This document shows, piece by piece, positions 1,872 to 24,233 of a stretch of 64,000 bases of DNA (the first letter of the stretch is position 1; each line of letters begins with the position of its first letter). The DNA lies in assembly GCA_003223325.1 (NCBI GenBank), contig QHYS01000026.1:1-64000 (forward strand). The letters run 5' to 3'. Below the pieces are notes generated by a model that saw nothing but the letters and a program-made list of their open reading frames with translations, did no database searches and was not told the origin of the DNA. The position numbers were made by a program, and so were the translations under genes. The DNA is from Acidobacteriota bacterium (GTDB lineage: Bacteria; Acidobacteriota; Terriglobia; Acidiferrales; UBA7541).

Positions 1872-2111
1872 TTAGGCTATCGTCTCAGACTCTTCAGATT
1901 CCTTCACCCGTTCCTTCACTGGTATTAAGGTCTCCAAAGCGATGAGCGCGTCTCGCAACGCCAATTGTTCTTCAAGCTCGGGCCTTTCACGCAGCCGTTG
2001 CGATATGGCCCGTTCGGCGATGCTGACTTTATGTCGCAGCGGTTGGGATTTGAATTCTAGGAAGGCGTCAAAAACAAACTGCTGCCACGGATACTTTATT
2101 GGTGAATCCAC
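1872..2111 (-). CDS. Small hypothetical protein, 79 residues
   Basis: GTG start at 2111 with GGAGGAG about ten bases upstream, which supports a real gene. The product begins MDSPIKYPWQQFVFDAFLEF, has a charged middle (SIAERAISQRLRERPELEEQ) and ends in a glutamate-rich tail. It is predicted helical and cytosolic with no membrane segment or cysteine pair. It lies downstream of a single-domain response regulator on the same strand, about 115 bases away. I do not recognise the family. Confidence 0.55.
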   Translation of the reverse strand: MDSPIKYPWQQFVFDAFLEFKSQPLRHKVSIAERAISQRLRERPELEEQLALRDALIALETLIPVKERVKESEESETIA

Positions 2112-2225
2112 GGTGTCTCTCCTCCACCTTCCTCCAAACCTCTACTGCTATTGTTCTCGCAGTCCGCCTTTCTAACCGGCCAGTCGGGTTGCTCACCAGA
2201 CTTCACTGCAAAATCAGCGGCCTCT

Positions 2226-2597
2226 CTAAGCAGTCTTCGTTGGTCGCACGCTTCGGAGGACAGAGAGAAACTCGGAAATCGGCATAGTCTTGAGCAAATA
2301 ATCGCCCGCACCACAGTCCGCTGCGCCTTGCCGATAGGCTGCGCTATCCCAGGCCGACAGGAGCAGGACCGTCGCACCAGCGAAACTATGCTTGATGCGG
2401 CGGGTCGCCTGCAGGCCGTTGGTGCCGGGCATATCGATGTCCATCAGGATGACATCAGGCTTGAGTTGTTGAGCTAACCGAACGCCTTCTTCGCCATCTG
2501 ATGCTTCGCCTACCAACATCCAGTCCTGCTGTACCTCCAAGATTCGCCGGAGGAATCTACGATATTCGTTGTTATCATCGACGATCAGGAACCTCAT
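2226..2597 (-). CDS. Single-domain response regulator (CheY-like receiver)
   Basis: A stand-alone receiver of 123 residues starting at MRFLIVDDNNEYRRF (ATG 2597). The frame is open further upstream, but the sequence before this ATG is not receiver-like. The acidic pair is D7-D8, the phospho-acceptor is D53 in ILMDIDMPG, the conserved Ser is in LLLSAWD, and the signalling Lys is in DYLLKTMP. There is no output domain, so it should act through protein contacts or a phosphorelay. No histidine kinase is nearby. Confidence 0.85.
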   Translation of the reverse strand: MRFLIVDDNNEYRRFLRRILEVQQDWMLVGEASDGEEGVRLAQQLKPDVILMDIDMPGTNGLQATRRIKHSFAGATVLLLSAWDSAAYRQGAADCGAGDYLLKTMPISEFLSVLRSVRPTKTA

Positions 2598-7117: not shown

Positions 7118-10100
7118 TTAGGTTTCGAAAGATTCCTCCCGTTCTGGGAGCTTATCGTCCTTCCGGGCGGACCAAACATATAGTGTGGGCAAAATAAATA
7201 TGCTCATCGCCAAATTGACCATCAGGCCGCCGACGACGACGATCGCAAATGGCCGCTGTGAGTCCGAACCGATAGCATGGGACGTCGCAGCTGGCAGCAA
7301 TCCAAGAGTCGCCACCAACATCGTCATCATGATCGGGCGTAGCCGCAGGACAGCGCCGTCTACTGCGGAGTTTACGATAGTGTGGCCTCGGGAACGGAGT
7401 TGGTTGATGTATTCGAGCATGATGACGCCGGTCTGCACGGAGACGCCGAAGAGCGCTAGGAAACCTATGCCCGAGGACACGCTGAAGTGAGCGTCTGTAA
7501 CCAGAAGTGCGACTAGGCCGCCGATGCTGGCCATCGCTACGGTCGCAAGAATCAACGCGGCCCACTTGGACGAGCGAAACATTGAGTAGAGGATCATGAA
7601 GATCACCAGGACGGTTATTGGAACGATAAGGAACAATCGCGCCTGAGCTCGCCTCTGACTCTCGTATTCACCTTCCCAATCGAGGCGGTACCCGCGCGGC
7701 AGTTGAATCTGTGCGTTTACTCTCCTGATGGCTTCCTCGACCGCGCTGCCTATATCGCGGCCGCGCACGCTGTACTTGATCGCGATATAGCGCTGATTTG
7801 CCTCACGGTAAATTTCCGAACCGCCATCCTGTTCTTTGATCTTGCAGAGTTGCGCCAGTGAGACTCGTTCGCCTGACGGTGAAAGCAAGCGAATGTTCTC
7901 GAGGGCCTCCTTCGTGGTGCGGTACTGGGGCAGATAACGCATCACCAGATCGTATCGGGCCTCACCGCGCAGCACCTGAGTGAGCGCATTGCCTCCGGCC
8001 GCGGTTTGGATGGCATCTTGTATATCAGCGACGTTGATCTGATAACGCGCCGCTTGTGCGCGGTCTACCTCGAAATTCAAGTTGGGCTGGCCCAAAACCC
8101 GAAAGACTCCCAGATCCTCAATTCCTTTGATCTGGCGCATAACGGAGACTATCTGATCGGCCTTTTGCTCGAGAACGTTCAAGTCATCGCCGTAGATTTT
8201 TGTGGCTAGTTCGCCCTTTACCCCACTGACCGCCTCTTCCATGTTGTCTTCTATCGGCTGAGAAAAACCCCAGACGACACCGGGAATTTTGTTCAGTTCG
8301 CGACTCATGGCGGCGATCAATTCGTCCTTGTTCTGGCGGAAGACCGGCCTCCACTGCTCCTTGGGCTTCAGGTCAACAAAGTACTCGGTATTGAAAAAGC
8401 CCGTCGTATCCGTTCCGTCATCAGGGCGCCCGACTTGGCTGGTGCACTGGGGCACCTCGGGAAAGGAACAAAGCACGGTGCGCGCTTGGTTTGCCACCCG
8501 GATTCCTTCGCTTGGTCCCGTGCTGGGAGCAAGCGTGCCTCGCACTCATAACGCACCTTCACCCAAGCGGGGCAGAAACTCGGAACCGATGACGCCGCCG
8601 TAGGCGAGATAAACGGCCAGACCTAGGCCCGCCACTCCGCTACCTACAGTCAACATGCGGCGATCAATCGCAAAGCGCACGGCCTTGCGATAACGGTCAG
8701 TCAAAAACGCCATCGCAGGGTTATGCAACTCGCGAACTCCCTTGCGAAAGAGCAGAGTGGAGAGCACAGGCGCGACGAGCATGGAAAACAACAGCGCGCC
8801 CAACAGCGCAAAAGCAACGGTCCAAGCCATCGGCCTGAAAAGGCGTCCCTCGACTCTTTGCAATGTGAAGATGGGTAAATAGGACGTGATGATAATGCCG
8901 ATGGCGTAAAACACGATCTCTGCACTTCATGGGCTGCGCCGCGAATCGCTTCCGCCATCGATTTTGTACTTTCTCCATTCTGGCGATGGCTCAAATGGCG
9001 GACGATATTCTCAACCATGACCACCGCACCATCCGCAACCATTCCGAAGTCCAAGGCGCCGAGCGAAAGGGGGTTTGCGGGAATGCCTCTGAGATTGAGG
9101 CAGGTGGCGGCAAACAATAGCGCAAAAGGAATGGTCAGGGCGACAATAACGGCCCCGCGAATGTTCCCAAGAAATAGAAAAAGAACAATTGCGACGAGCA
9201 CCATTCCTTCGGTGAGGTTGTGCAGCACGGTATGCGTCGTGTAATGGACCAGGTCGCTGCGATCGATAAAGGGAACGATCTTTACGCCGGCCGGTAAGAT
9301 GTGGTCGTTGAGCTCTTTGACCTTGGCCGCGAGACCCCTGAGGGCCTCGTCCGCATTCGCACCCTTACGCAGGAGAACGATTCCAGAAACAACGTCATCG
9401 TTGTCGATAATCGCGCCGTCTTCTCGCTGGATCGCGCGGCCAAACTGGCCCAACCGGATCTTTGGGCCTTGCTCGACCCCAGCGATGTTCTTTACTCGCA
9501 CCGCCGTCCCGCTCTTGGTCGTAATGACCGTGTTTTCGATGTCTTGTACGTTCTGGACCAAGCCAACTTCCCGAATATTGATCTGCTGGAGGCCGGCTTC
9601 GATGAAGCTGCCGCCCGCATTTACATTGTTGTTGGCGAGTTGCTGTTCTACCTGTGCGAGGCTGAGACCGTAGGAGATCAGCTTGTCCGGGTCAACGCGA
9701 ACCTGATATTCGCGCGTGGGTCCGCCGAAGCTGGCAACATCCACAATGTCGGGGACAGATTGTAGGTTTTTCTCAACGACCCAATCTTCGAGTGATTTCA
9801 ACTCCATTACGTCGTACTGTGGATTGGTGCTTCGAAGCGTGAAGAAGTAAATCTGGCCGACAGGGCTCCAGTCTGTGCCCATCTGCGGTACGACACCGGA
9901 GGGCAAGGTGACTTGAGAAAGCCGTTCGAGGACCCTCTCCCGGTTCCAAGCGTTTTGTTCTTCATCATCAAAAATTAGCTTCAGGTCCGAGAGCCCGAAT
10001 AGAGAGAAGGAACGGAGGTGAACCACATGCGGGATGCCGTTCATCGCCGTTTCGAGTGGAATCGTCACCTGCTGCTCGATTTGTTCGGCGGAGATTCCGG

Positions 10101-10260
10101 GCCACTGCGTGATGATCTCTACGTAGTTGTCAGCCACGTCGGGATAAGCTTCGACGGGCAATTGAGGGAAGGAAATCGCCCCCCAGCCAAACAACAGCAG
10201 CGCAGCTGCAAGGATGAGAAAGCGATTGTTCAGCGCAAAATCGACTAAACCACGAATCCT
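7118..10260 (-). pseudogene. cusA/czcA: Heavy-metal RND efflux pump (CusA/CzcA), broken
   Basis: Inner-membrane proton-driven pump of the HME-RND family that would expel Cu, Ag, Zn, Co or Cd from the periplasm. Joining three frames gives about 1047 residues, the full family length. Recognisable parts are FPQLPVEAYPDVADNYVEII near the N-terminus, GPTREYQVRVDPDKL, SLGALDFGMVADGAVVMVEN, and the second half with NEDLKPKEQW-like FVDLKPKEQWRPVF. Three lesions: the expected start codon position reads AGG at 10260 after an upstream TAG (the first usable start is a TTG at 10194); one base is missing near 8916-8917 (HEVQR then VFYAIG); and an in-frame TGA at 8548-8546 replaces the Trp expected in GEGALWVRGT. 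Confidence 0.85.
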
Positions 10261-10305
10261 CGACTACTCCCTGGGTACTGCGGCGACCAATGGATGGCGT
10301 CGCCT

Positions 10306-11438
10306 TTATTGCTCGACTGTGTTCTCCAGCGCCAGGGCATCGTTTACGACCTGCTGGCCGGTCTGAATCCCGGAAACGATCTCTTGGATGTTGCCAGGCA
10401 GCATCTCTCCCGCTACGACTTCGGTTCGCCGAAACCGACCGCTTCCCGCCGACACAAAAACCCAATCGCGATCTTGCAAGTGCAAGATCGCAGAAGCCGG
10501 CACCGTTGCATGTTTCTCCTCGGTCATGCCATGGAACGTAGCTGTGACAAACATTCCGATGCGCATGAGCCCAGGATTGCGTACCTCGATGCGCACCTTG
10601 GCCGTGCGAATATTTGGGTCCAGAATCGCGCTGATATTGTTGATTGTGCCTCTGAAGACTTGGCCGGGAAAAGCATTCAGCCGGATGTCCGCAGTCTCGC
10701 CGAGGCGCACGCTCGGAAGATCGTTTTCATGCACATCGCAAAGCACCCAGATGTAGGAAAGATCAGAAATCGTAAACAGGTTCGTTCCCAGACCTTGCAC
10801 GCCCCCGGCATTCGTGACTTGCTGCTCTGCGATGACTCCAGAAACCGGCGCGACGATGTCCACGATCCCGGTCGGATGTTCTAGGTCACTTCCCAACAAC
10901 CGCAGATGCTCCGAAGTGGTTTCCACGTCCACCTGTGCTTTGTCTTCCGCATCCTGTGCGACCTGCAGATCATTCAGGGCAATGGCTCCGTGAGCATAAA
11001 GATCCTTGGCGCGGTCGAGTTGAGTTCGAGCGAGCGAGCATCTCATCGGCGACAGCCTTGCGATATTCGGAAAAAGCGCCCGAGATATCCGAGCTCTGGA
11101 CACGCATCAGGAGCTGACCTTTTTGAACGGTGTCTCCCAAACGCGCCTGAATTTCTACCACCCGGCCGGCAGCAAGCGAGACGACCGGCACGGTTCTAGA
11201 CACATCGGGACTCACCGTTCCGGTAACCACCAGTTGCGATCTGGCGGCGCGCTGGGCCCGCCGTTACCAGCGAAAATTGTTCCGGGTGATCGACCCTGAC
11301 GACATTGAGATCCTGCTCATGTTCGACGTGGGCTGGTGGCGGCGCTTCAGCCGCCGGGTCAGCATGGGTGCTACAACCAGCCAGAGTAAGACCCAAGGCA
11401 ACAACGCATGCACATCGGGCCCCAATTGTGCTTGTCAT
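10306..11438 (-). pseudogene. cusB/czcB: RND periplasmic adaptor (CusB/CzcB), broken
   Basis: Membrane fusion protein that would link the pump to an outer-membrane channel. The N-terminal frame (ATG 11438) is a lipoprotein with LTLAGCSTH as the lipobox. The core continues in a second frame (VVTGTVSPDVSRTVPVVSLA) and the C-terminal half in a third (ARTQLDRAKDLYAHGAIALN ... ILHLQDRDWVFVSAGSGRF). One extra base lies near 11240-11255. The second frame change coincides with a triple GCTC at 11028-11039, where two units would restore the reading DEMLARTQLDR. It lies directly upstream of the broken pump, so the operon as sequenced is dead. No outer-membrane factor gene is seen. Confidence 0.85.
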
Positions 11439-12304: not shown

Positions 12305-12549
12305 CTATGAACACATGTTGACCGGATTTTGTGTTTCTACTATCCAATGGACCACTTCGCCATTCTCGCCTTTTACATCGAGTTGCAGGAGGCAATGGGG
12401 ATTGGACCAGAACCATTCGGTCACGGTTCCCTTCAGGGTAAGTCTCTTGTCGGTATCGAAGGCCGCAGTTCCGTGGTGTGCAAGTAACGGGCGGAAAAAG
12501 TCGCCGCACACAAGGCTAGAACGAATCTTGGTGCAACTTTCCTGCTCAT
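12305..12549 (-). pseudogene. Small exported AHH/NPH protein (DUF6152-like), broken
   Basis: The signal peptide MSRKVAPRFVLALCAATFSA begins at ATG 12549, but the mature part (LLAHHGTAAFDTDKRLTLKG, TVTEWFWSNPHCLLQLDVK) is in another frame; one missing base near 12488 would join them. The product then stops at 12305 after NPVNMCS, where relatives continue for about 30 more residues. The family hallmark, His-His just after the cleavage site and an NPH further on, is shared with the genes at 17037 and 19366. It follows the large secreted protein at 12572 by 22 bases. Confidence 0.7.
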
Positions 12550-12571
12550 TGCTCGCGCTTCCGTTTGCCAG

Positions 12572-13483
12572 CTATCGTTGCGGTGAATGGCCCCCTACGC
12601 CACCGGCCCCAGAACCACTTGAAGGATCGCCAAATAATCTATTATAACGCTCCATCTCCGAGGGCGAACAATACTGCTCCATGACGTCCCGATGAGGATC
12701 CTCCAATTTCATCAGGAACTTGTCCATAGCGACCCAAGGTTTCGTATACATTTTGGGATCGTCGATGGTCACCGTCCATTCCAAATGGTCGCGGTCAACG
12801 CGATGGAACCGCTCCTCCACGCGCAATTGATCGCTGATGGGACGCCCCGCGGTATCCAGCCACACCCGGTCTTCTCCCATCATTCCCGTCGTCTCAACAA
12901 CGAGCGTGGTGTCATCAACCCATTTTCCGACTGAGTATCCGTAATAGCGGGGCTCCTTAACTTCCTTACCGATCAGTACGCCGCCATCCACCAAGTTGGG
13001 AAGTTCGCGGCCGTCCGTCCAGATGACGCGCCAGACGGTTCCATACTGGTAGAGCATCACGATCTTGTACTCGTTCTGAAGGATCTGCGTTTCCCTCAGG
13101 TTGTAAAAATTCATCCGCGGAAATCCCAGCGGCTCGCATTTGTCGCGCGGATCGTCAAAAAAGCCGGGAAGCACAGCATCAGCTCCTTCGAGTGCGTGGT
13201 GGGACTTATACGTTTGTGATCCATAAGGCGTGAAGGGCAATTGATGTTCCGGCTTTCCGTCATTCGGCATAGCCTTAACGCCATTCGCCTGGATTCCGTC
13301 TGAAGGCCCATTGGCCGGCTCCCAGGTTCCAGAAATATCGTGGCGGGGAGCAGCGGCCGCGGCCGCTCTCTGTCCTTTGGCCGCCGCGGGCGGCTGCGGC
13401 CGCTCGCTCTGAGCGAGTGCCGGCGCCGAAAAAATCACCGCTGCCACCAGGACAATAATCGAGACGCTGAAGCGATGTAGCAT
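12572..13483 (-). CDS. Exported protein of the GxSxGxWxxDTLVV family
   Basis: 303 residues from ATG 13483 (MLHRFSVSIIVLVAAVIFSA), a clear signal peptide ending APALAQ. An Ala/Pro-rich linker leads to HDISGTWEPANGPSDG. The core has RDKCEPLGFPRMNFYNL, VMLYQYGTVWRVIWTDGREL, GYSVGKWVDDTTLVVETTG and DDPKMYTKPWVAM. Paralogues at 17477 and 19764 share the same order of motifs. I know these only as uncharacterised secreted proteins common in Acidobacteria. It is paired with the small AHH protein downstream. A beta-rich fold is likely; no catalytic residues can be named. Confidence 0.82.
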   Translation of the reverse strand: MLHRFSVSIIVLVAAVIFSAPALAQSERPQPPAAAKGQRAAAAAAPRHDISGTWEPANGPSDGIQANGVKAMPNDGKPEHQLPFTPYGSQTYKSHHALEGADAVLPGFFDDPRDKCEPLGFPRMNFYNLRETQILQNEYKIVMLYQYGTVWRVIWTDGRELPNLVDGGVLIGKEVKEPRYYGYSVGKWVDDTTLVVETTGMMGEDRVWLDTAGRPISDQLRVEERFHRVDRDHLEWTVTIDDPKMYTKPWVAMDKFLMKLEDPHRDVMEQYCSPSEMERYNRLFGDPSSGSGAGGVGGHSPQR

Positions 13484-13627
13484 TTCAAGACCTTTCGCGC
13501 GAGGGGAATCGGGCCAACCATACGTCTGCCGCCTCAATTAAGTCAAGTTCACCACCAGAACATCCAAATGGGGAGACGATTGCTGGGTTGTGGGAATAGA
13601 AATTCGGCAAGCGTCAGCCTAGGCCTT

Positions 13628-14263
13628 TTAGGTCGGATTCTTTGAAACGCCTAAGCCGTCGACTTCAACGTCAAGATGGTGATTGATGCGCAGCCCATAA
13701 ATGCCGTCGGTCTTCGCGGCCGGCCCGGTTTTGGGAAGTGTCTTCACGACCGTGCCGTTGACGACGAAATCAATCTTATCGGCCATCACGCGTACTTCGA
13801 GCGCATTGGTGCAGCTTCCATTGGCGTCGGGCTTCTTCACGGCGCTGCTGGGCGTCTTGTCTGACACTTCCTGTGTTGTACCTCCAGTTCGGCGTTTCAC
13901 AAGCCACGTCCCATCATCGGTGATCACAAAATACAGATACTCTTGGCCCGCCGCCGCTAGATTGCTCCCTCCGAATACGAGCCCGTAATATTCGAGGTAG
14001 CCAGTCGACTTCATCAGCTTGAATGTGCCTTTGAGCGTGTAGGTACCGGTCGCCGTATTTGCGGGGTTCCAGAAGACCGCTGCCTGAGGAGTGGTCACGT
14101 GAAAGCCCGATGCCGTTGTGACAAGCTTAATGGGGCCCGGGGCGTCCGGATCTGAAGCTTCGGTGCTGCGATCCACCCGCAGCATCCAGCCCTTCGGCAC
14201 CTGCGCGAGCAGGGGCATAACTGCAATTAAGGCGAGTACCGCGACAGCAGCATGGCGCTTCAT
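13628..14263 (-). CDS. Exported LamG/DUF1080-like protein
   Basis: 211 residues with signal peptide MKRHAAVAVLALIAVMPLLA. The mature part is beta-rich: FWNPANTATGTYTLKGTFKL, YYGLVFGGSNLAAAGQEYLY, TWLVKRRTGG, VMADKIDFVVNGTVVKTLP, YGLRINHHLDVEVDGLGV. That pattern (a ligand-binding jelly roll with a FVVNG..V turn) is typical of concanavalin-like or 3-keto-disaccharide hydrolase-like domains. No catalytic residues are evident. A good GGGAGG site precedes the ATG. It stands alone between the secreted genes. Confidence 0.72.
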   Translation of the reverse strand: MKRHAAVAVLALIAVMPLLAQVPKGWMLRVDRSTEASDPDAPGPIKLVTTASGFHVTTPQAAVFWNPANTATGTYTLKGTFKLMKSTGYLEYYGLVFGGSNLAAAGQEYLYFVITDDGTWLVKRRTGGTTQEVSDKTPSSAVKKPDANGSCTNALEVRVMADKIDFVVNGTVVKTLPKTGPAAKTDGIYGLRINHHLDVEVDGLGVSKNPT

Positions 14264-14453
14264 CTAAAGCCTCCCGAGAATATGATTCCGATAATACTCC
14301 CAGCCCGTCATCGTTAGAAGCCAATCGGATACGATACGCCTTCGGCATTGGAATTATGCCTCAACGGCGATTCCTCAATTTGGCGACGAGCGAAGCACGC
14401 ATGCCGCACGAGACGGATCAAAGGCCTCTCCGCCCTGTGTGCCTCTGAGAGAG

Positions 14454-15671
14454 TCAGTTTTCGTGCCCGTAAACGGCGATGCAACCCTGCTTGGCAGGAA
14501 AGCCAAACATGGTGTTGCACACGTCGGTTGGTGAGGCAGCGGTCGGAATCGCGATCGGAACGAAGATGTGATTGTTCTCCCGGAACGCGGCCACCGAATG
14601 GGAGCCGGGTCCGGCCGGCAGATTATTCAGCAGCTTGTTGGTCGCGGCATCGATGACGCTCAGAGTCGGATTGCCGCCGAAGCCGCTGGGTGCGTAATAA
14701 TTGTTGTCCCCGGGGTTATACCACACCTCGTCGGCGCCCCTGGTTCCTTCAACCGAGGTGAGCACTTTGCCCGTCAACGCGTCCAAAACGATCAGGGGCT
14801 TTCCTCCTCCACATCCGACGAGCAGGTGTTGCGAAGGGCCGAGCACCAAACCGGAGCCGCAATTACCCGTAGGATAGGTCGCTTCGATGGTCGGTGCCTT
14901 GGGGTCCTTCAAGTTGAAGACCACCACTTTGGAGGTCTCGCCCATGCCGGGCACCGTCGCAAGCATGCGGCCCCCCTTCAGTTCCGGATCCCAAAGCGGT
15001 TGCTCGAAGCCACGCGCACCGGGAAACGGAACCTTGCTAAGAAGAGTGTAGGGCGGATCGGAAGAGATCAGCGCAGCGTAGGGAGGCTTTTCTTCCGGAT
15101 TGCCGACAATAACGATGTGGTCTTTGGGATCGAATCCGATCTCGTCCGCGCGGCAATTAGCTCCCGTTGAGATCGTGGCAATGGGTTTGACATCATTGAA
15201 CGGTGGCTCGGCCTTTGCCAGATCGAACACCTTCACCATGCCATGGGCGTCGTCGGCCCATAGCTGATTGTTCGGCGTGACTAAGATGCCGTTAGGACCC
15301 ATTCCTTCGATCGGGCCACAGGGGTCGTCGGAAAGACCCAGGCCGTGAAAACCGGTAATGCGGCCGAGAAACAAATCGTTCTCGGCATCAATGACGTCCA
15401 CGCCGCCGTTTCCGGACTCAGCCAAGTAGTATCTGCCTGTAGTTTGATCGACCCAACTGATGTCGAACCGCAGAGGATTGCCAGGCAAATAGATTCCGCC
15501 GAGAAGTTTGACGGGCTTTTTCGAACTTGGCTTGGGACCGGCGTCCGGGCGTGGTCGCGCGTTCAGAACCAGGACAAGAGCGACCGACAAGAGAAACAGA
15601 GCGGACACGGTCGTTTTCCTCGGGGATTTCTTCCCGGGGAGTGGCGCAGGTTCTATCCTTGGGCCCATCAC
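14454..15671 (-). CDS. Exported YVTN/YncE-like beta-propeller protein
   Basis: 405 residues; Met1 and Met2 are both possible starts. An N-terminal membrane segment (TTVSALFLLSVALVLVLNAR) serves as signal or anchor. It is followed by repeated blade motifs: YYLAESGNGGVDVIDAENDL, PNGILVTPNNQLWADDAHG, MVKVFDLAKAEPPF, HLLVGCGGGKPLIVLDALTG, TLSVIDAATNKLLNNLPAGP. It is a surface or periplasmic propeller of unknown ligand. Cysteines at DDPCGP, GANCRA, GNCGSG, VGCGG and DVCN could form disulfides. A remnant of a similar protein lies at 20688. Confidence 0.75.
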   Translation of the reverse strand: MMGPRIEPAPLPGKKSPRKTTVSALFLLSVALVLVLNARPRPDAGPKPSSKKPVKLLGGIYLPGNPLRFDISWVDQTTGRYYLAESGNGGVDVIDAENDLFLGRITGFHGLGLSDDPCGPIEGMGPNGILVTPNNQLWADDAHGMVKVFDLAKAEPPFNDVKPIATISTGANCRADEIGFDPKDHIVIVGNPEEKPPYAALISSDPPYTLLSKVPFPGARGFEQPLWDPELKGGRMLATVPGMGETSKVVVFNLKDPKAPTIEATYPTGNCGSGLVLGPSQHLLVGCGGGKPLIVLDALTGKVLTSVEGTRGADEVWYNPGDNNYYAPSGFGGNPTLSVIDAATNKLLNNLPAGPGSHSVAAFRENNHIFVPIAIPTAASPTDVCNTMFGFPAKQGCIAVYGHEN

Positions 15672-15867
15672 ATGGCTCCTTTCGGCGTGTAGGCCAAGCT
15701 TCCGAGGCGACTGCGCGCTCGGTCGCCTTCTTCTCTTCAGCTAATGGAATAGCAAACGAATGGGGGTGATGATACTTATCTCGCGTTAGGGTTTCAAGCT
15801 TTGTTCCTTCTCGCAGCCTCGTGTTTTCTCTAGACATCAACGTTTTTTGGTGTAGCATGCCGCCGTT

Positions 15868-16353
15868 ATGTTCCTTCATCTCGGGCGGTTGTTGCAGAAC
15901 AACTCATTCATCGTCACGATCAACGAAGTGCCGGTGACCGCTGCGGCGCTCGAGATCATTCATTACTTCAGCATGTTTCTGGTTGTCGGTCCGACGGCGA
16001 TGGTGGACTTGCGTGTCCTCGGGGCAGCGGATCGGCATCACCCTGTTGCAGAACTAGCGGAACGGTTTTTCCCCTGGGTGTGGGTGGCGCTCGCGTTCAA
16101 CGCGCTGTCAGGGTTTCTCATGTTCGCGGGCAATGCCGTTGCGTATATTCCTGAATCGACATTTCACGCGAAGATGCTGGTAACTTTGCTGGCCATTATA
16201 TTCACCCTCGCTGTTCAGCGCGGCGTACCGAAATGGGATCGATCGCCCTCGATGCCTGCAACTGCAAAGATCGTGGCGATCATCTCAGTGCTTCTCTGGA
16301 TCGGGGCAATTCTCGCCGGAGTGGAGGTCCCGGCCCTTTCCGGCATTGGCTAG
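15868..16353 (+). CDS. Four-helix membrane protein, DUF6644-like (first copy)
   Basis: 161 residues with four likely membrane helices (around ALEIIHYFSMFLVVGPTAMV, WVWVALAFNALSGFLMFAGN, KMLVTLLAIIFTLAVQRGVP and IVAIISVLLWIGAILAGVEV). His residues in IIHYF and Arg in MVDLRVLG resemble the haem or cofactor contacts of CopD/DUF2214-type proteins, but this is only a resemblance. The neighbour at 16385 is a paralogue, 31 bases downstream on the same strand, so they may form a heterodimer. Confidence 0.68.
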   Translation: MFLHLGRLLQNNSFIVTINEVPVTAAALEIIHYFSMFLVVGPTAMVDLRVLGAADRHHPVAELAERFFPWVWVALAFNALSGFLMFAGNAVAYIPESTFHAKMLVTLLAIIFTLAVQRGVPKWDRSPSMPATAKIVAIISVLLWIGAILAGVEVPALSGIG

Positions 16354-16384
16354 GGTGTGAGATTACTAATTGGGAGCCATTGAA

Positions 16385-16873
16385 ATGGTGGGCGAAGTAG
16401 TCAATTTTGGTAATTGGCTGCAAAACACTTCGTGGGCCTTGGCGATCGCCACATCTGACTGGGCCTATCCCTTCGTGCAAGCGACCCACTTTACCGGATT
16501 ATCGCTATGGATTGGGACGAGCGTTGCGGTCGATTTGAGCCTGCTGGGCGTTGGTAATAGGCGGCAGCCGCCTTCCAGGCTCTCGGATGCGTTGTTCTTG
16601 TGGAACTGGATCGGCTTTGCGATCGCCATAGCCGGCGGCTTCCTACTCTTCTCCGTCTCGGCCGCGACCTACCTGGTTAATGCCGCCTTCCTCACTAAAC
16701 TCGGCCTGCTCATTCCACTCGCTGTTATTTTGCACGTAGCAGTGCAGAAAAGAGTGCGGGGATGGGGGCAAATGCCGGCCATGCCTGCGGTGGCGAAACT
16801 TGCGGGGCTGGCCGAGCTTCTGCTGTGGCTGTCGGTCGCGACGGCTGCGGTTTCGATCCCCTACTTAGCCTAA
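16385..16873 (+). CDS. Four-helix membrane protein, DUF6644-like (second copy)
   Basis: 162 residues from ATG 16385 (MVGEVVNFGNWLQNTSWALA). Helices include AYPFVQATHFTGLSLWIGTS, FLWNWIGFAIAIAGGFLLFS and LGLLIPLAVILHVAVQKRVR. It shares with the first copy a membrane His (ATHFTGL versus IIHYFSM), an Asp after helix 2 (AVDLSLLG versus MVDLRVLG) and MPAMPAVAKL versus SMPATAKIV near the last helix. They look like an old tandem duplication. Function unknown. Confidence 0.68.
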   Translation: MVGEVVNFGNWLQNTSWALAIATSDWAYPFVQATHFTGLSLWIGTSVAVDLSLLGVGNRRQPPSRLSDALFLWNWIGFAIAIAGGFLLFSVSAATYLVNAAFLTKLGLLIPLAVILHVAVQKRVRGWGQMPAMPAVAKLAGLAELLLWLSVATAAVSIPYLA

Positions 16874-16928
16874 GTCAGAAATACGTGGTTGCCCGCATAG
16901 GCGCCTTTTAGCCGCGACCCATAGAGCT

Positions 16929-17012
16929 GTCATTCTGAGGAGCGAAAACCCGGGGTACCAAGCGCGTGGCGGTTTTGCACATGCTGGGTGGTAGCGACGA
17001 AGAATCTCTCCT
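16929..17012. repeat. Copy of a dispersed GTCATTCTGAG...GACGAAGAATCTC element
   Basis: GTCATTCTGAGG at 16929-16940 is followed by GACGAAGAATCTCTCC at 16997-17012. The same two blocks occur in degenerate form at 54884-54921, and in inverted arrangement at 62536-62563. Elements of this sequence are scattered between genes in many bacterial genomes, to my memory. Confidence 0.45.
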
Positions 17013-17036
17013 CTATTTTTCTTTCGCGCAGGCTGT

Positions 17037-17441
17037 TTATTCTCCGCCTAGCCTAAACACGAGCACATGGCCATCGGAATGGTATTTGATTTGTTTCAGG
17101 AATCCCCAGTGCTTCGAGTGGTCCTTCGCGGCAATGCAGGTGAGGGTAACAACTTCCCCGACCCGCCAGTCTTGACGGTGCACTCCCGCACGGCTGTAGG
17201 TGCTCGGCGGATTCCCCTCGCAACCCCACGTTTCAGACGCGCCCGTGCTCTCGTCCTTGACTTCCACCCAAGTGGCTGTGTGCGGGTTAATCCAGTCGAC
17301 CTTTTTTAGGACACCCGTGACGGTCCATTCCTGATTGGCGTCAAATTCGGCAGTAACCGAATGATGCGCCAAAAGAGGAGCACAGACTACCAGAAGGGCG
17401 GTGGCAGAGAGCAGCATCCCGCAAACTTTGTTTTTGTTCAT
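17037..17441 (-). CDS. Small exported AHH/NPH protein (DUF6152-like)
   Basis: 134 residues from ATG 17441. Signal peptide MNKNKVCGMLLSATALLVVC runs to APLLA, then the mature chain begins HHSVTAEFDANQEWTVTG. VLKKVDWINPHTATWVEV carries the NPH motif, and the rest (EVVTLTCIAAKDHSKHWG) is beta-rich. Small single-domain OB-like or beta-barrel proteins are likely; no enzyme motif is visible. It lies 35 bases downstream of the large secreted gene at 17477. Two cysteines (WGCEG and LTC) could form a disulfide. Confidence 0.8.
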   Translation of the reverse strand: MNKNKVCGMLLSATALLVVCAPLLAHHSVTAEFDANQEWTVTGVLKKVDWINPHTATWVEVKDESTGASETWGCEGNPPSTYSRAGVHRQDWRVGEVVTLTCIAAKDHSKHWGFLKQIKYHSDGHVLVFRLGGE

Positions 17442-17476
17442 GGAGGTGTACCTTTGTAACTCGTCTTCGCGTGTCC

Positions 17477-18820
17477 CTACTTGGCCTGCTTGGCGGCCAA
17501 CCGAAACTCGTTCCTGTTGATCTTGATAGACCCGTCGATGTCTTTGGCCACGACCGTGGCGCGGACATCGTATTTCTTCTGTCCGTCCGATACTGTGGCG
17601 TGAAGAAACGCGCCCTCTAACGTCCCTTCCAGCGGCATTTCGCCGCTCTTGCTCGTGACGGTGCCGGTAACCTTGCTGCCATCCTGCTTCATCACCCACT
17701 GCTGGTTCATCAGGCCTTCGATTGTGCTGTAAATCTGAACGTTCCAGCTTCCCGCAATATTGGGGATAGTCTGAGTCGTGGCCGCAACGGTCGTCGGCTC
17801 GGCGGCGTCCTTCGAGGTGACATAAGGGGTCTCGTCTTCTTTGACCAAATGGCTCTTATCCAAAGGCAGGCACATGGTCGGGCGGATATAATCGCCTGGG
17901 GCGGCAATTTGCGTCTGCCGCGGAGTCATCATCCAGGGCTTGGTAAACATGACGGGATCTTCCACCGTGGCCTCGTAGGTCAGTACGTCGCCTGCACGAG
18001 TCCAGCGTTCGATGACATGCAGCTGGTCGCTATGCATCATCGCCAATTTCGGCCCGACGGTTCCAGAGCCGAGCCAGGTCTCGTCGTTGAGCCCGACCAC
18101 GTCAACGACAAGGGTATCGCCCTCCCAATGCCCGATCGAATCGCCATAATAGGAAGAGTCCAGATCCTTGGGGTGCGGACGCCCGTCGAGGTAAACAATC
18201 CTGAAATAGGGACCCGGTCTGTCTTCATAGAGGAAGGCCACGACTTGCGAGTTCTGCACGATCTGCATCGCGTAACCACCACCGCCGCGAAGCGATCCGC
18301 GCGGCACGCCGTACGGGATACAGTCATACTGCGGATCCGCCGGTGAGGCATCGCCGTGCATCGCGTCGCCGATGGCCTTGACCTTGGCCATGTATTCCTG
18401 CTTATACGGCGGCTCCTCGCAGGATACGCAAGTGCGATCGAGAAGATTCACTTTGCCGTTCTGAGTCTGCAGGACCTTCGTGCCCACTTGTTCGCTTCCC
18501 GCCGCATTGGCTCCTCCGTAATCAAAGAACACCGACCCGTCAGCGGACCTGACCACAACGTGCTGGCCCGGCTTTTCCTGTACGGGGTCCCCGGCAAAAA
18601 TGTCTCCGAGATTGTAGAAGCCGCTCAGATCCGGGTGACCATCCGGCGTCCGCGGCGTTGGTTTCGAACCGGGTGCTAGTTTCGAGGGTGTTGGTTTGGA
18701 AGCCGCCGACGTCTTCCCTGGCGCCGCATCCTGAGCCGCACACCACGGCAAAAAGCACAACGCCGCCACCCCCGCGGCAACCACGATCATAGAGCGACTA
18801 ACGCTGCGTCCCAGTCTCAT
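17477..18820 (-). CDS. Exported protein of the GDSIGHWEGDTLVV family
   Basis: 447 residues from ATG 18820; signal peptide MIVVAAGVAALCFLPWCAAQ follows a short Arg-rich start. A Lys/Pro/Ser linker precedes TPDGHPDLSGFYNLGDIFAG. The core has YDCIPYGVPRGSLRGGGGY, VAFLYEDRPGPYFRIVYLDG, YYGDSIGHWEGDTLVVDVVG, LNDETWLG and VEDPVMFTKPWMM. A C-terminal extra domain (IAGSWNVQIYSTIEGLMNQQ to the end, about 100 residues) is absent from the two paralogues and looks like a small beta-barrel. It pairs with the small AHH protein downstream. Confidence 0.83.
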   Translation of the reverse strand: MRLGRSVSRSMIVVAAGVAALCFLPWCAAQDAAPGKTSAASKPTPSKLAPGSKPTPRTPDGHPDLSGFYNLGDIFAGDPVQEKPGQHVVVRSADGSVFFDYGGANAAGSEQVGTKVLQTQNGKVNLLDRTCVSCEEPPYKQEYMAKVKAIGDAMHGDASPADPQYDCIPYGVPRGSLRGGGGYAMQIVQNSQVVAFLYEDRPGPYFRIVYLDGRPHPKDLDSSYYGDSIGHWEGDTLVVDVVGLNDETWLGSGTVGPKLAMMHSDQLHVIERWTRAGDVLTYEATVEDPVMFTKPWMMTPRQTQIAAPGDYIRPTMCLPLDKSHLVKEDETPYVTSKDAAEPTTVAATTQTIPNIAGSWNVQIYSTIEGLMNQQWVMKQDGSKVTGTVTSKSGEMPLEGTLEGAFLHATVSDGQKKYDVRATVVAKDIDGSIKINRNEFRLAAKQAK

Positions 18821-19006
18821 GTCATACCCTCCTTCGCGGCCCGTTCCCCGCGCGAATTCTCCCATCGCCCAGTGAAACGTGTCAACGCCAGTAACGCTGA
18901 GTTCGGCGTCAGTGCCTTCGCCCAAAATTTCGGCAACGAGACCGCCGCCGGCTTCGTGGTTGCTCATACGTGTATGAAACGCGAAGGATTCCCCGCCGGA
19001 ATAACA

Positions 19007-19130
19007 AGCGGTGGGTTAATCGCAGCCGCCGGGCTGCTCCGATTTGTTTTAGATGACCTCCCTCGACTTGCTGCAAGACCTTCAACCGCTCCCATTCTTT
19101 CGCGCTCAACTCGATTCGCTCCGGTCCCAT
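19007..19130 (-). pseudogene. Transposase N-terminal remnant (ISNCY/IS21-like)
   Basis: From ATG 19130 the minus frame reads MGPERIELSAKEWERLKVLQ and then QVEGGHLKQIGAARRLRLT, the helix-turn-helix start typical of ISNCY-type transposases. After about 41 residues the sequence no longer resembles a transposase, so at least 90 per cent of the gene is gone. The end repeats of the element lie just upstream at 19151-19202. Confidence 0.6.
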
Positions 19131-19150
19131 CCCTCCTTCCGCTGGATGAA

Positions 19151-19202
19151 ACCGGACATTTCTATTTTGCGCAAACCGGACACTCTCATTTTGCTGCGAC
19201 AG
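19151..19202. mobile_element. Insertion sequence end with two subterminal repeats
   Basis: Two direct copies, ACCGGACATTTCTATTTTG (19151-19169) and ACCGGACACTCTCATTTTG (19175-19193), start 24 bases apart and end in CTGCGACAG. Repeated TGTCCGGT blocks starting from a terminal TGTCG are typical of the ends of IS21-type and related elements. The opposite end was not found, in keeping with the truncated transposase. Confidence 0.6.
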
Positions 19203-19365
19203 TAGCCTGTGGCGCCTTGACACGGGCACGATAGCGGGTATACACATCGGAGCCGGACTCTTTGTGCGCACATCTTTTTGTTCGCCTGACTGCGGCTGAT
19301 TCGGCTCGCACCTTCGGCCTACTAGGCAGATGGGGACGCTTCGAGAGCGCTGGCGAGGTAGGAGT

Positions 19366-19767
19366 ATGAAATTCAAGCTGCGTGCGTGTTTCGTTGTGGC
19401 GGCGGGGTTGTGCGTTGGGTCGCTTCCCGTATGCGCCCATCACGGTACAGCAGAATACGACAATACGAAGACGATCTCTCTGCAAGGAACCGTCACGGCC
19501 TTGCAATACCTCAATCCACATGCGTTGATCCTCTTTACCGTCAAGGACGATAAAGGACAAGCCGCAAATTGGACCGCCGAGCTTCAGAGCCCGAATCTTC
19601 TGTCGAGAAGGGGCTGGAGCAGAAGCACGCTGAAGCCGGAAGACCAAATCATCGTCACGGGTCATCCGGTGAAGAATGGCGCGAAGGCCATGTCCGGTCA
19701 GAAGGTCGTATTTATCGACGGGCGAGAGACCCCCTACATGGGATTGCCTGCCGATTCTTCCAAATGA
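19366..19767 (+). CDS. Small exported AHH/NPH protein (DUF6152-like)
   Basis: 133 residues from ATG 19366 with GGTAGGAGT just upstream. Signal peptide MKFKLRACFVVAAGLCVGSL runs to PVCA, then HHGTAEYDNTKTISLQGTVT. ALQYLNPHALILFTVKDD has the NPH motif; ELQSPNLLSRRGWSRSTLKP and IIVTGHPVKNGAKAM complete a small beta-rich domain. The stop overlaps the start of the large partner (ATGA), the tightest coupling of the three pairs and strong evidence that the two proteins work together. Confidence 0.85.
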   Translation: MKFKLRACFVVAAGLCVGSLPVCAHHGTAEYDNTKTISLQGTVTALQYLNPHALILFTVKDDKGQAANWTAELQSPNLLSRRGWSRSTLKPEDQIIVTGHPVKNGAKAMSGQKVVFIDGRETPYMGLPADSSK

Positions 19768-20606
19768 GAAGCCCGATCATTTTTCAGTTTTGCACGAGCT
19801 TTTTGCTTTGCAGGAGCTTTTTGTTTTTCGCTGGCCTCCTCTTAGTCCCGTCTGTGCTGCATACGCAAGCTTCGCAGCCGGGAAAGGCCGGAGGCCAACC
19901 CACAAGCCAGACTCCGGCTGCCTTCAGGGGCGTCTGGTATCCGTCAACGAGAAGCACTTTGGGAGCGGCCACGCCCGACAATCCTGGCCAGCAGTTTGTC
20001 TGGCTCCATCCCGAGGGCAAACCCCTGAAGGGTCCTCTACCTCTGACTGCGTGGGGGCTGGAGAGACTCAACGCCAATCGGCCCATAGGACCTAATACCA
20101 CGGCGATCGACTCGAACGATCCCGATTTCCAATGCTTCCCATCCGGCTTGCCGAGGATCTATCTCTTCCTCTACCCACTGGAGATTATCCACACGCCTGG
20201 GCGCGTGCTCATGCTTTTCGAGTACGGCCACGTCATTCGGCAGATTTTTACGGACGGGCGCGGGCACATGCAGGACGCGGGGCCCACCTGGATGGGCGAC
20301 TCCATTGGCCACTGGGAGGGAGACACGCTCGTCACCGACACCACGGGTTTTAACGATAAGACCTGGCTTGGTTACGGCGGCCAGCCGCATTCCGACGCTC
20401 TTCACCTCATCGAGCGCATTCATCGTATAGACCACGATTCGTTGATGATCGACATCACGCTCGATGACCCCAAGGCGTACTCGATGCCCTTGCACACACA
20501 AAAGAAATACATTTTGAAGCCCGATTGGAACATCATGGAGTTCGTCTGCGAAGACAATTCTCTCAACTTCCTCGAGTACGAAAAGAAGGTCAGAATCCAA
20601 CAATAG
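19764..20606 (+). CDS. Exported protein of the GDSIGHWEGDTLV family
   Basis: 280 residues from ATG 19764, overlapping the small gene's stop. Signal region FLLCRSFLFFAGLLLVPSVL, then a linker and FRGVWYPSTRSTLGAATPDN. The core has DPDFQCFPSGLPRIYLFLYP, VLMLFEYGHVIRQIFTDGRG, GDSIGHWEGDTLVTDTTGFN, KTWLGYGGQPHSDALHLIER and LDDPKAYSMPL. It is the shortest member in the window and lacks the C-terminal domain of the 17477 protein. The frame is open far upstream, but the overlap start gives a proper signal peptide. Confidence 0.83.
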   Translation: MRSPIIFQFCTSFLLCRSFLFFAGLLLVPSVLHTQASQPGKAGGQPTSQTPAAFRGVWYPSTRSTLGAATPDNPGQQFVWLHPEGKPLKGPLPLTAWGLERLNANRPIGPNTTAIDSNDPDFQCFPSGLPRIYLFLYPLEIIHTPGRVLMLFEYGHVIRQIFTDGRGHMQDAGPTWMGDSIGHWEGDTLVTDTTGFNDKTWLGYGGQPHSDALHLIERIHRIDHDSLMIDITLDDPKAYSMPLHTQKKYILKPDWNIMEFVCEDNSLNFLEYEKKVRIQQ

Positions 20607-20687: not shown

Positions 20688-21393
20688 CTAAAGGTCGATA
20701 CAGACTCCATCGGCTACCATCCGGCGAAGCACTATCTTTACGTGGACAGCGGCGGCGACAATGCCCACGAAGCTTTCACCATGCTCAGCGTTGTCGACAC
20801 GACCGCCGGCACGAAGCTTGCGGACGTCAAAATTGACGGCGATACGCTGGAAGCCATGGCGCTGGAGACGTCGGGAAGCAGGCTCTTTTTGAACAACCCG
20901 GCAAAGAACGAAGTCGAAGTGATCGATCGCAAGACAAATAAATTGACCACGAGTTGGCCGGTCAAACTGGGCAAGGACAACTCCACGATGGCGTTCGATG
21001 AATCAGCATATCGCCTTTTCGTCGGATGCCGCAGCGGGCAGATGGTGGTCTTCAATACGCAAGCGGGGAAAGAACTTCAGGCGCTTGCGATCGGAAGGAG
21101 AGCGGACGACCTGGTGTTCGATCCTGCGAGTAAGCGCATTCACGCGACCTCTGGCGGTGCCGGCGTGGTAAATGTGTACAAGGAAATCGATCCGGATCAC
21201 TATCAGTCGCTGGGACAAGTTCCCTCCGGTCCGGGCGGGAAAGACCGGCCTTCTGGTGACGCAGTTATCTCGTCTTTTTGTTCCCGCGCCGGGGAAAGGG
21301 GCTCCGCCGAGCGCGGTCTACGCCTCCGAACTTTCAGTGAACGGCGCTGGAGGCGGGCACTCGCGTGGACTGGGACAATCGAAAGTGTTGTAA
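20688..21393 (+). pseudogene. YVTN beta-propeller protein, truncated and frameshifted
   Basis: The frame opens after TAA 20685-20687 directly inside the fold (KVDTDSIGYHPAKHYLYVDS), so the start and signal peptide are missing. Blades follow: LSVVDTTAGTKLADVKIDGD, RLFLNNPAKNEVEVIDRKTN, RLFVGCRSGQMVVFNTQAG, RIHATSGGAGVVNVYKEIDP. At about 21237-21243 one extra base in a GGGCGGGAAAG run shifts the frame; the proper end (GGKTGLLVTQLSRLFVPAPG) continues in the next frame to TGA 21391. It resembles the class of the intact gene at 14454. Confidence 0.75.
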
Positions 21394-21449
21394 CCGACTC
21401 ACCGGTCGCACGCGCCCGCCAGCTTCCCAAGAGTTGCTGCCCGATCTCT

Positions 21450-22097
21450 TTACTTCAGCGCAGAATTGACGTACCCGTGCTGGAGAACCTTTTTCAAGTC
21501 CGGCCGAATGCTCAAATACGTGATGTGATCCGGAATCGCTGAAAATCCGTGCGGCACATGCTCCGGAATTATGATCACGTCCCCCGTTTTTATCTCGCGG
21601 CTCGTATATCCCACCATAGTGCCGCCGCAGGAAGGGCCATTGAGGACCGTCGTCACTTCGTCATTCGGACCAGAACGTTTCCCGTTGACGATGCTGCCCC
21701 CGGTGATCAGAGTTCCGCTACCCGATATGACGACGTAACTCTCGGCGGTATCGTCGTGGAAGATTCCCGTGGGACCCGTCGCACCGGGGCGCTGCTCGCC
21801 GCAAGACTGCGAGGCGCTCGCTGCCGCAGGCGCGGCGCTTCCCCCGCCCGCATTTGCGGTGGTGCCACCGCCTTTCATGGCTCCGCGGGCAACGACAGCA
21901 ACGCCGAGCTGATACTGACCCATATCGATCACTCTAAGCGTATTATCCGGAATTGTGCGATGCGTATCGGCCGAGTGCTTCAAGACGGCCTTGATATTCT
22001 CATCGCTGATGTACACGCTATCTTTGGGTGCTTGAGCCAGCGCTGCCGAGCAAACTGCAAGCAGTATGACCGGGATTTGCAAGACTTGCTTCCGCAT
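21450..22097 (-). CDS. Exported cupin-domain protein
   Basis: 215 residues with signal peptide MRKQVLQIPVILLAVCSAAL ending ALAQ. The cupin core has TGIFHDDTAESYVVISGSG (motif 1 like H..D..E.Y.V..G.G) and VIIIPEHVPHGFSAIPDH (motif 2, with PxxxPH). His, Glu and His residues for a metal are present. A Gly/Ala/Ser-rich insert of about 30 residues interrupts the start of the domain. Family members bind sugars or act as small dioxygenases or isomerases; the substrate is unknown. Confidence 0.75.
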   Translation of the reverse strand: MRKQVLQIPVILLAVCSAALAQAPKDSVYISDENIKAVLKHSADTHRTIPDNTLRVIDMGQYQLGVAVVARGAMKGGGTTANAGGGSAAPAAASASQSCGEQRPGATGPTGIFHDDTAESYVVISGSGTLITGGSIVNGKRSGPNDEVTTVLNGPSCGGTMVGYTSREIKTGDVIIIPEHVPHGFSAIPDHITYLSIRPDLKKVLQHGYVNSALK

Positions 22098-22553: not shown

Positions 22554-24233
22554 GTGACAAAGCACAGGAAAATGAGAGAGGCCTGGTCGAGGAGAGATTT
22601 TGTCAAGACCACACTCGCGGGCGTTGGAGCGACTGCCTTGGCCTGCAGCGCAAAGCCAGTTGGTGCGGCGTATGCTTCGCGGCATTGGGACAGCGTCGCG
22701 GATGTCGTAGTCGTCGGGGCGGGAGCTGCAGGTCTGCCCGCTTCGATTGAGGCCGCCGAAAATGGAGCATCCGTTATCATTGTCGAGCAGAATTACGACA
22801 TCGGCGGACACGCCATAGAGAGCGGCGGCAATATCGCTTTGGGAGGCGGAACAAGCCTGCAAAGAAAATACGGCATCGAGGACTCACCAGACCAAATGTT
22901 CTCAGACTTGGTGCACTGGCACGACTATCGGTTCAGCGACCGGGAAATTGTGCGCGCCTTTTGCGACTGGAGCGCCCCGACCTTCGAATGGCTGAAAGAA
23001 CACGGAGTGGAATTTCCCGACCGGTCTCCGGTCGGTGCCGATGGTGGTCCCCAAAACATCAAGAGAGCGCAGACAGTTGTGTGGAGCGAGGGACCTAGTT
23101 CCGTGGCTCCCAATGGAGGAAATGGAACTGCCCTCGTGCGGCCGCTGGAAGCGAGCGCAAGAAAACTTGGCGTGCAAATCCTGCTGCGGCACAGCATGAC
23201 CGGAATCATTAGAGAAGGCCAACTTTCGGGAAGGGTTCTCGGCATCACGGCTACGAGCCAGGGCAAGACCCTCAACATTCAGGCCAGGAAAGGCGTGATC
23301 ATCGGCACGGGAGGTCATACCAGTAACGTGAATTTCCGTCGCATGTTTGACCCCAGGCTAACCGAAGAGTACCAAGTGGTTGGCGAGCCGTATTCACGCC
23401 AAACTGGTGATGGCGAGAGCGCGGCTATGGGCGTCGGGGCAGCACTTTGGGGCGTAGCGAACCAAACCCTTGAGACAATGGCCCGATCGCACATTTTTGA
23501 AAAACCCTACGTGATTGGTAATCAGTATGGTTATCCGCAGGGCGGTGGGACTCGCAACGAAAATCTGAAGAATAGCCCTATTGCGGGCCTCGCTCGTGCC
23601 ATAGGCCTTCTCGTAAGGGACTACCAGGACGTGATCCACGTGAATCAGGTGGGTCTGAGGTTCGTAAACGAAGCAGCCACCGGATTCGATTGGTGGAATC
23701 CTTGCCTGGAGTTGAATGGTGGAACAGGCGAAGGAGGAGGCCCCATTTGGGCGGTCTTCGATGCAGACGCGGTTAGACGAGAGGGTTGGACGTGTACGCC
23801 GCCATACGTGGATCCGGAGGGCTGGTTTTTCAGTGCGACCACGCTTGCCGAGCTCGCGCGCAAGATCGTTAGCAAATATCAGAAGCAGCCTGTGCCGCCC
23901 GTGGCTTTGGAGCAAACCGTGGCCCGATACAATTCGTTTGTGGATGCGGGCAAGGATGCGGATTTTGGAAAACCAACTCCCCAGTACAAAATCCAGACGG
24001 CCCCGTTCTATGCCGCCTGGTCGACGCCCTGCATTCATGATTGCGTGTCAGGGCTGAGGATTAACGCGAAAGCCCAGGTCATTGACCTGCAAGGCCAAGT
24101 GATCCCGGGACTTTACTGCGGAGGCGAATCGGCGGGTGGATTCAACCAGCACGGTCTGGCAAAGTGTCTGGTCTTTGGCCGCATCGCTGGTCGCGAAGCG
24201 GCGCGCTCGTCGGTAAGCTCCACGAAATCTTGA
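22554..24233 (+). CDS. Tat-exported FAD-dependent oxidoreductase (FAD_binding_2)
   Basis: 559 residues. The N-terminus has a twin-arginine motif, SRRDFVKTTLAGVGATALAC, so the folded flavoprotein is probably exported. The FAD fold is ADVVVVGAGAAGLPASIEAA with EQNYDIGGHAIESGGNIALG; the C-terminus has GLYCGGESAGGFNQHGLAKC. This layout matches the fumarate reductase / 3-ketosteroid dehydrogenase group, where a second domain holds the substrate. GTG 22554 has a strong AGGAGG site; ATG 22572 is a later option. The substrate cannot be told from sequence alone. Confidence 0.85.
   Translation: MTKHRKMREAWSRRDFVKTTLAGVGATALACSAKPVGAAYASRHWDSVADVVVVGAGAAGLPASIEAAENGASVIIVEQNYDIGGHAIESGGNIALGGGTSLQRKYGIEDSPDQMFSDLVHWHDYRFSDREIVRAFCDWSAPTFEWLKEHGVEFPDRSPVGADGGPQNIKRAQTVVWSEGPSSVAPNGGNGTALVRPLEASARKLGVQILLRHSMTGIIREGQLSGRVLGITATSQGKTLNIQARKGVIIGTGGHTSNVNFRRMFDPRLTEEYQVVGEPYSRQTGDGESAAMGVGAALWGVANQTLETMARSHIFEKPYVIGNQYGYPQGGGTRNENLKNSPIAGLARAIGLLVRDYQDVIHVNQVGLRFVNEAATGFDWWNPCLELNGGTGEGGGPIWAVFDADAVRREGWTCTPPYVDPEGWFFSATTLAELARKIVSKYQKQPVPPVALEQTVARYNSFVDAGKDADFGKPTPQYKIQTAPFYAAWSTPCIHDCVSGLRINAKAQVIDLQGQVIPGLYCGGESAGGFNQHGLAKCLVFGRIAGREAARSSVSSTKS

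Follow-up and report, generated by a model that had tools for sequence, protein, structure and literature searches.

The first 64,000 nucleotides of contig QHYS01000026.1 (assembly GCA_003223325.1, an Acidobacteriota bacterium of the Acidiferrales), referred to here as the window, contain three modules that each combine a gene for a small exported protein with a gene for a larger one, and the question raised by this locus is what the two proteins do together. The small proteins belong to the Pfam family DUF6152, the large ones to an unnamed family, and two genes for membrane proteins of a further family, DUF6644, lie between the modules. It is well supported that the small and the large protein work as a unit. 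With respect to their function, we favor a metal-capture unit of the cell envelope that would be made up of all three families, with DUF6152 contributing a histidine brace, the large protein a ligand-binding barrel and DUF6644 a pair of membrane partners, and we assign a probability of about 0.42 to this reading as a whole.

All three small sequences score above the gathering threshold of DUF6152 (PF19649, 27 bits) and carry the motifs AHH and NPH, and the motif G(Y/D)S(V/I)G(K/H)W is present in the large proteins. The six genes are the following:

12305..12549, minus strand: module 1 small gene (DUF6152), broken; PF19649 E 8.8e-19, 67.8 bits
12572..13483, minus strand: module 1 large-family gene, 303 amino acids, exported, predicted calycin-like barrel
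17037..17441, minus strand: module 2 small gene (DUF6152), signal peptide, mature start HHSVTAEFD, NPH motif; PF19649 E 6e-20, 71.6 bits
17477..18820, minus strand: module 2 large-family gene, 447 amino acids
19366..19767, plus strand: module 3 small gene (DUF6152), mature start at 19438 (HHGTAEYD), predicted OB-fold; PF19649 E 1.2e-27, 96.3 bits
19764..20606, plus strand: module 3 large-family gene, 280 amino acids, predicted barrel resembling calycins and fatty-acid-binding proteins (FABP)

The large gene comes first in module 1, with a gap of 22 bp to the small-gene region, and also in module 2, where the gap is 35 bp, while in module 3 the small gene comes first and shares a 4-base overlap (ATGA) with its partner. 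These pairs had been pointed out in a preliminary description of the window, and their coordinates, gaps, overlap and two gene orders were borne out from the sequence. The small proteins had been described there as carrying AHH and NPH, which applies to all three, but module 1 has a disrupted small gene. The ATG at 12549 and a signal-peptide-like stretch lie in frame -2 (MSRKVAPRFVLALCAATFS), whereas the AHH...NPH body lies in frame -1 and runs into an early stop after NPVNMCS, at a point where the paralogue L022 reads on (tblastn). As start and body do not share a frame and the body is cut short, the gene reads as a pseudogene or an assembly error.

Several other module copies in this genome are likewise fragments or broken, and one might suppose that duplication spread a repeat family that is now in decay and has no current function. 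However, a comparison with the sister genome L090 (Acidobacteria gp2 AA84), which retains modules 2 and 3 and both DUF6644 genes, gave ratios of nonsynonymous to synonymous substitution (dN/dS) of 0.13 and 0.18 for the small and large gene of module 2 and of 0.24 and 0.23 for those of module 3. Together with the two DUF6644 genes these modules are under purifying selection (dN/dS 0.11-0.24), which largely refutes decay in the case of these two modules. As residues are also near-invariant over 190 DUF6152 sequences and the pairing is retained across phyla, we consider decay very improbable as an explanation of the modules in general.

How far the pairing extends can be seen in the genome from which the window comes (6.1 Mb in 377 contigs), for which the search-match lists, fragments included, contain 100 DUF6152 matches and 149 matches of the large family. 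A large gene on the same strand lies within 1.5 kb of 84 of the 100 DUF6152 matches, while about 7 would be expected on either strand under random placement. Both gene orders are common among these 84 adjacent pairs, 51 of which are small-first and 33 large-first, and order tends to be inherited, since the nearest small neighbor has the same order in 50/61 pairs. The distances between small proteins correlate with those between their large partners (61 pairs, Mantel r 0.68; permutation standard deviation 0.04, maximum 0.15), a pattern to be expected from duplication of whole pairs that retain their partners. The large family also has an existence separate from DUF6152, and consecutive large-family genes with few or no DUF6152 genes are found at L184, L067 (G000:C209) and L061.

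Two other candidates for the context of the modules were considered. The genome of the window contains a second large envelope expansion of about 112 CarboxypepD_reg matches, many of them in open reading frames of 1000-1300 amino acids that resemble TonB-type receptors, and these were rejected as obligate partners because they are not clearly linked to the modules: among the 75 best matches, 10 lie near a large gene at 3 kb (7.8 expected) and 22 at 6 kb (13.1 expected). A single catabolic pathway was rejected because the Pfam tallies of the neighboring genes are diverse.

The preliminary description had taken the pairing in both gene orders as a sign of joint action of the two proteins in the cell envelope, and had held that rare adjacency in other genomes would speak against this. 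The families are adjacent elsewhere, and the co-divergence described above, shared presence and natural fusions support the same view. Presence and position counts for 61 relatives and for an even sample of 247 Acidobacteriota genomes refer to the matches listed. DUF6152 was found in 18 of the relatives, the large family in 19 and both in 17. In the broader sample, each family occurs in 31 genomes, 30 of them common to both, and their presence agrees in 245/247 genomes; the corresponding Fisher p of about 1e-36 is indicative only, as related genomes are not independent. Both exported families occur on the same 8 of the 72,556 plasmids of PLSDB, all from sphingomonads. At loci of named species (Acidobacteriota, Caulobacteraceae and Gammaproteobacteria), a large gene lies within 1.2 kb of 51/56 interior DUF6152 genes, a proportion that is biased upward because these loci were found with a nine-sequence alignment of the large family as query. 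Finally, fusions in the order signal peptide, DUF6152, large protein occur in three genomes (counted as genomes, not as fusion events), namely at L170 and L174 (G052), L190 (G174) and L191 and L193 (G046), and a further place in G046, L196, gives a full-length fusion match.

AlphaFold2, supplied with 60 paralogues, predicts the mature DUF6152 protein of module 3 as an oligonucleotide/oligosaccharide-binding (OB) fold with a predicted local distance difference test score (pLDDT) of 89.7; the model comprises strands 13-23, 30-36 and 42-48, a helix at 52-57 and strands 70-78 and 84-92. Foldseek retrieves single-stranded DNA-binding proteins and synthetase OB domains for it (best E 8.6e-4), a few family members match OB-fold Pfam families, and no relative was found among the PDB sequences. 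Membership in two families of known metalloproteins was considered and rejected: none of 60 DUF6152 members matches CopC (PF04234) at E <= 0.1, and the predicted OB-fold is not the cupredoxin-like beta-sandwich of that family; nor is there a profile match to lytic polysaccharide monooxygenases (LPMOs), whose immunoglobulin-like/fibronectin-type beta-sandwich with its flat brace surface is likewise not what is predicted.

The residues H1, H2, P27, H28 and E48 are invariant in the 60 paralogues. Across phyla, none of the 185 sequences aligned there lacks H1 or H2, H28 is found in 188/189, and the residue before H1 is alanine in nearly all family members, with the signal-peptide cleavage site read by eye. 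E48 is less strictly kept (180/187) and therefore a weaker candidate for a metal ligand, although an OB topology would place the beginning of strand 2, which follows H28, alongside the end of strand 3, which holds E48, so that these two residues are probably close. The only full-length DUF6152 sequence without the two leading histidines is that of the L193 fusion (1348-2520, plus strand), a natural variant of the proposed metal site in which NPR replaces NPH. This joint loss of HH and H28 is a single event, and a common ligand of the three histidines would predict just such a loss.

The large family gave no meaningful match in Pfam, NCBIfam, PHROGs or the PDB sequences. The module 3 protein is modeled as a barrel (pLDDT 86.9), and almost every one of its 50 best PDB matches in Foldseek is a cellular retinol-binding, cellular retinoic acid-binding or fatty-acid-binding protein. 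G20, R123, G142 and D199 are the same in all of 72 sequences, and C88 and C226 are nearly so. At its C-terminus, the module 2 protein is extended by about 115 amino acids (IAGSWNVQIYSTIEG..., 17477-17840, minus strand) that are absent from other family members.

Alternatively, the conserved histidines might have no part in binding a metal for catalysis or transport, and the pair could be a ligand-binding or structural complex of the envelope, for instance one that binds hydrophobic or anionic compounds at the surface, with HH and NPH serving in folding or at the interface between the small and the large protein. Both predicted folds are typical of binding proteins, and an anionic ligand could be held in the large protein by Arg123 and Asp199, which do not vary within the family. 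Yet the invariance of the small protein extends exactly to the signal-peptidase cut, which an interface role would not need, and the joint loss of HH and H28 in L193 is the pattern of a shared ligand. We therefore regard a complex without such a metal as rather unlikely.

The third family is represented in the window by a tandem pair, both members of which exceed the gathering score of PF20349 (27 bits):

15868..16353, plus strand: DUF6644 membrane protein, first of the tandem pair, with the invariant His30 position; PF20349 E 1.2e-11, 45.4 bits; dN/dS 0.24
16385..16873, plus strand: DUF6644 membrane protein, second of the tandem pair; PF20349 E 5.3e-8, 33.6 bits; dN/dS 0.11

The second gene could also start at a TTG at 16370, upstream of the annotated start. 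DUF6644 occurs mostly in tandem pairs, and it scores above the cut-off in exactly the 31/247 genomes that have DUF6152. Among the matches listed, 17 of these 31 genomes have it no more than 3 kb from DUF6152 or from a large gene. In the genome of the window, 8/11 DUF6644 matches are this close to a large gene, with 1.1 expected, and two DUF6644 genes also stand beside a module on plasmids of Novosphingobium humi and Sphingobium TomTYG65. Among 23 sequences, His30, Gly80, Phe97, Lys100 and Trp142 are invariant. The family has no convincing relative among the PDB sequences and is weakly, below threshold, similar to CopD (PF05425) and DUF2214; the first window protein reaches 19.3 bits against CopD. 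The DUF6644 proteins are part of the system, as is also relevant for the genes that the preliminary description had listed around the pairs: DUF6644 stands, the propellers show no such link, and the flavoprotein recurs only once.

From these observations, the following sequence of events can be proposed. DUF6152 would be exported, trimmed to begin with His-His and folded into an OB barrel. A transition metal, most likely copper, would then be held in a site of the histidine-brace type made up of the N-terminal amine, of His1, His2 or both, and of the His28 of the NPH motif. Metal binding and the identity of the metal are suggested here by the invariance of the residues and by precedent. The large partner, an exported calycin/FABP-like barrel, would bind a small ligand or a metal-ligand complex and dock on DUF6152, and the tandem DUF6644 proteins, distantly CopD-like and with an invariant histidine, would act as inner-membrane partners. 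The soluble pair could then capture a metal or metal complex and hand the metal (or electrons) to the membrane pair, as CopC does to CopD; we infer both the docking interface and this direction of transfer. CopC-type histidine-brace domains act with CopD membrane domains in copper import, and the two also occur fused or adjacent (PMC13344008). As about 100 pairs face about 11 DUF6644 genes in this genome, many capture proteins of different ligand specificity might feed a few membrane partners.

A number of observations weigh against such a metal-capture unit. About 100 copies are far beyond the need of a simple copper importer, and large genes often stand alone: 55/149 large-family matches in the genome of the window have no DUF6152 on the same strand within 1.5 kb, and about half of the large genes at the loci of named species have none nearby. 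Among the matches listed, DUF6644 does not adjoin a pair in 14/31 genomes, and its best CopD matches (18.9-19.3 bits, in 3/23 members) stay below the cut-off of 32.1. In the structural models, the first ten residues of DUF6152 have a mean pLDDT of only 77, and the assignment of the large protein as a calycin-like barrel is weak (Foldseek E >= 2.8e-3, TM-score on the query <= 0.36).

The number of copies leads to the main rival of metal capture, a copper-dependent oxidase module. The pair would then be a secreted metal-dependent oxidase or oxygenase, in which DUF6152 holds a redox metal at the brace, the barrel forms the substrate pocket and DUF6644 supplies electrons or metal, and some 100 paralogues would cover many organic molecules of the soil. 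An expansion of about 100 pairs with invariant histidines and yet a diverse partner fits this idea, as does the presence of flavin enzymes, pyrroloquinoline quinone (PQQ) dehydrogenases, a tannase and esterases among the module neighbors, and LPMOs are a precedent for histidine braces that act as oxidases. However, an enzyme signature was not found in the pair, the neighboring enzymes are too diverse for one chemistry, and the perfect co-occurrence with a CopD-like family suits metal handling at least equally. Moreover, the N-terminal-histidine proteins characterized in PMC12537917 had little or no oxidase activity. We thus think that an oxidase or oxygenase is unlikely, and slightly more so the stronger proposal that soil Acidobacteriota possess a new class of secreted copper-dependent oxidases or oxygenases in which an OB-fold brace and an obligate calycin-like substrate barrel form about 100 substrate-specific pairs.

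Several other genes surround the modules in the window. A CusA/CzcA-type heavy-metal RND permease and a CzcB-type adaptor (7118-11438, minus strand) are each split over several open reading frames in different frames and represent a decayed or mis-assembled metal-efflux operon adjoining the broken module 1; this remnant is compatible with a metal context, but it is a single case. On the other side, an open reading frame at 20742-21542 (plus strand) is propeller-like, has no clear start or signal peptide and seems to be what is left of a larger gene. An exported cupin-domain protein (21450-22097, minus strand) adjoins the gene of a FAD_binding_2 flavoprotein of the twin-arginine translocation (Tat) type (22554-24233, plus strand). 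The Sphingobium plasmid pTomTYG65a has a FAD_binding_2 oxidoreductase and two luciferase-like monooxygenases near its modules, and with this one distant recurrence the link of the flavoprotein to the modules is anecdotal.

The system had been put forward as a candidate for something undescribed, and a literature search, which had most subscription journals outside its reach, returned no paper that mentions DUF6152, DUF6644 or PF19649, so that the exported pair appears to be previously undescribed as a system. The analysis ties three uncharacterized families into one system, with about 100 core pairs in a single genome. Few groups of soil bacteria are as abundant as the Acidobacteriota, and a large share of the genes for their cell envelope still lacks an explanation. 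If the proposal is correct, the system offers a route to how soil Acidobacteriota capture metals or oxidize soil organic matter.

Among known systems, SusC/SusD-type repertoires also consist of many co-diverging two-gene units for ligand capture in the envelope of one genome. The similarity lies in this multiplicity, whereas the proteins are unrelated and an association with TonB-type receptors of the CarboxypepD_reg kind is not clearly above chance here. Calycins and fatty-acid-binding proteins resemble the large protein in its predicted beta barrel, but the latter shows no sequence similarity to them, aligns with low TM-scores, is exported and has two near-invariant cysteines. With the histidine-brace oxygenases of the LPMO type, DUF6152 shares an N-terminal histidine and a second histidine as proposed metal site; its predicted fold is different, it has no match to their profiles, and no link to polysaccharides is known.

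A signal peptide that is cut directly before a histidine is the signature that, according to PMC12537917, recently revealed new copper- and nickel-binding proteins. DUF4198, DUF6702, Ang-1 and Ang-2 of that study share with DUF6152 the cleavage directly before a conserved histidine and an internal histidine, the site being His1/His18 in DUF4198 and, as modeled, His1/His28/His32 in DUF6702. As far as it was consulted, its main text does not treat DUF6152. Those proteins are beta-sandwich or immunoglobulin-like, whereas DUF6152 has a predicted OB-fold, a His-His start and a dedicated partner, and the OB-fold would, if the proposal holds, be a new scaffold compared with these N-terminal-histidine metalloproteins.

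The closest parallel is CopC-CopD/YcnJ (PF04234, PF05425), in which an exported protein that starts with histidine after cleavage is likewise associated with a family of small membrane proteins that have several transmembrane segments and a conserved histidine. The system described here differs by the predicted OB-fold of DUF6152, by an obligate third, calycin-like partner and by up to about 100 copies. The best reading thus works like CopC-CopD metal handling, yet DUF6152 does not match CopC and DUF6644 stays below the CopD cut-off. As the layout resembles that of CopC-CopD but is realized on different folds, we favor capture or transfer of a metal, probably copper, with the ligand specificity residing in the barrel.

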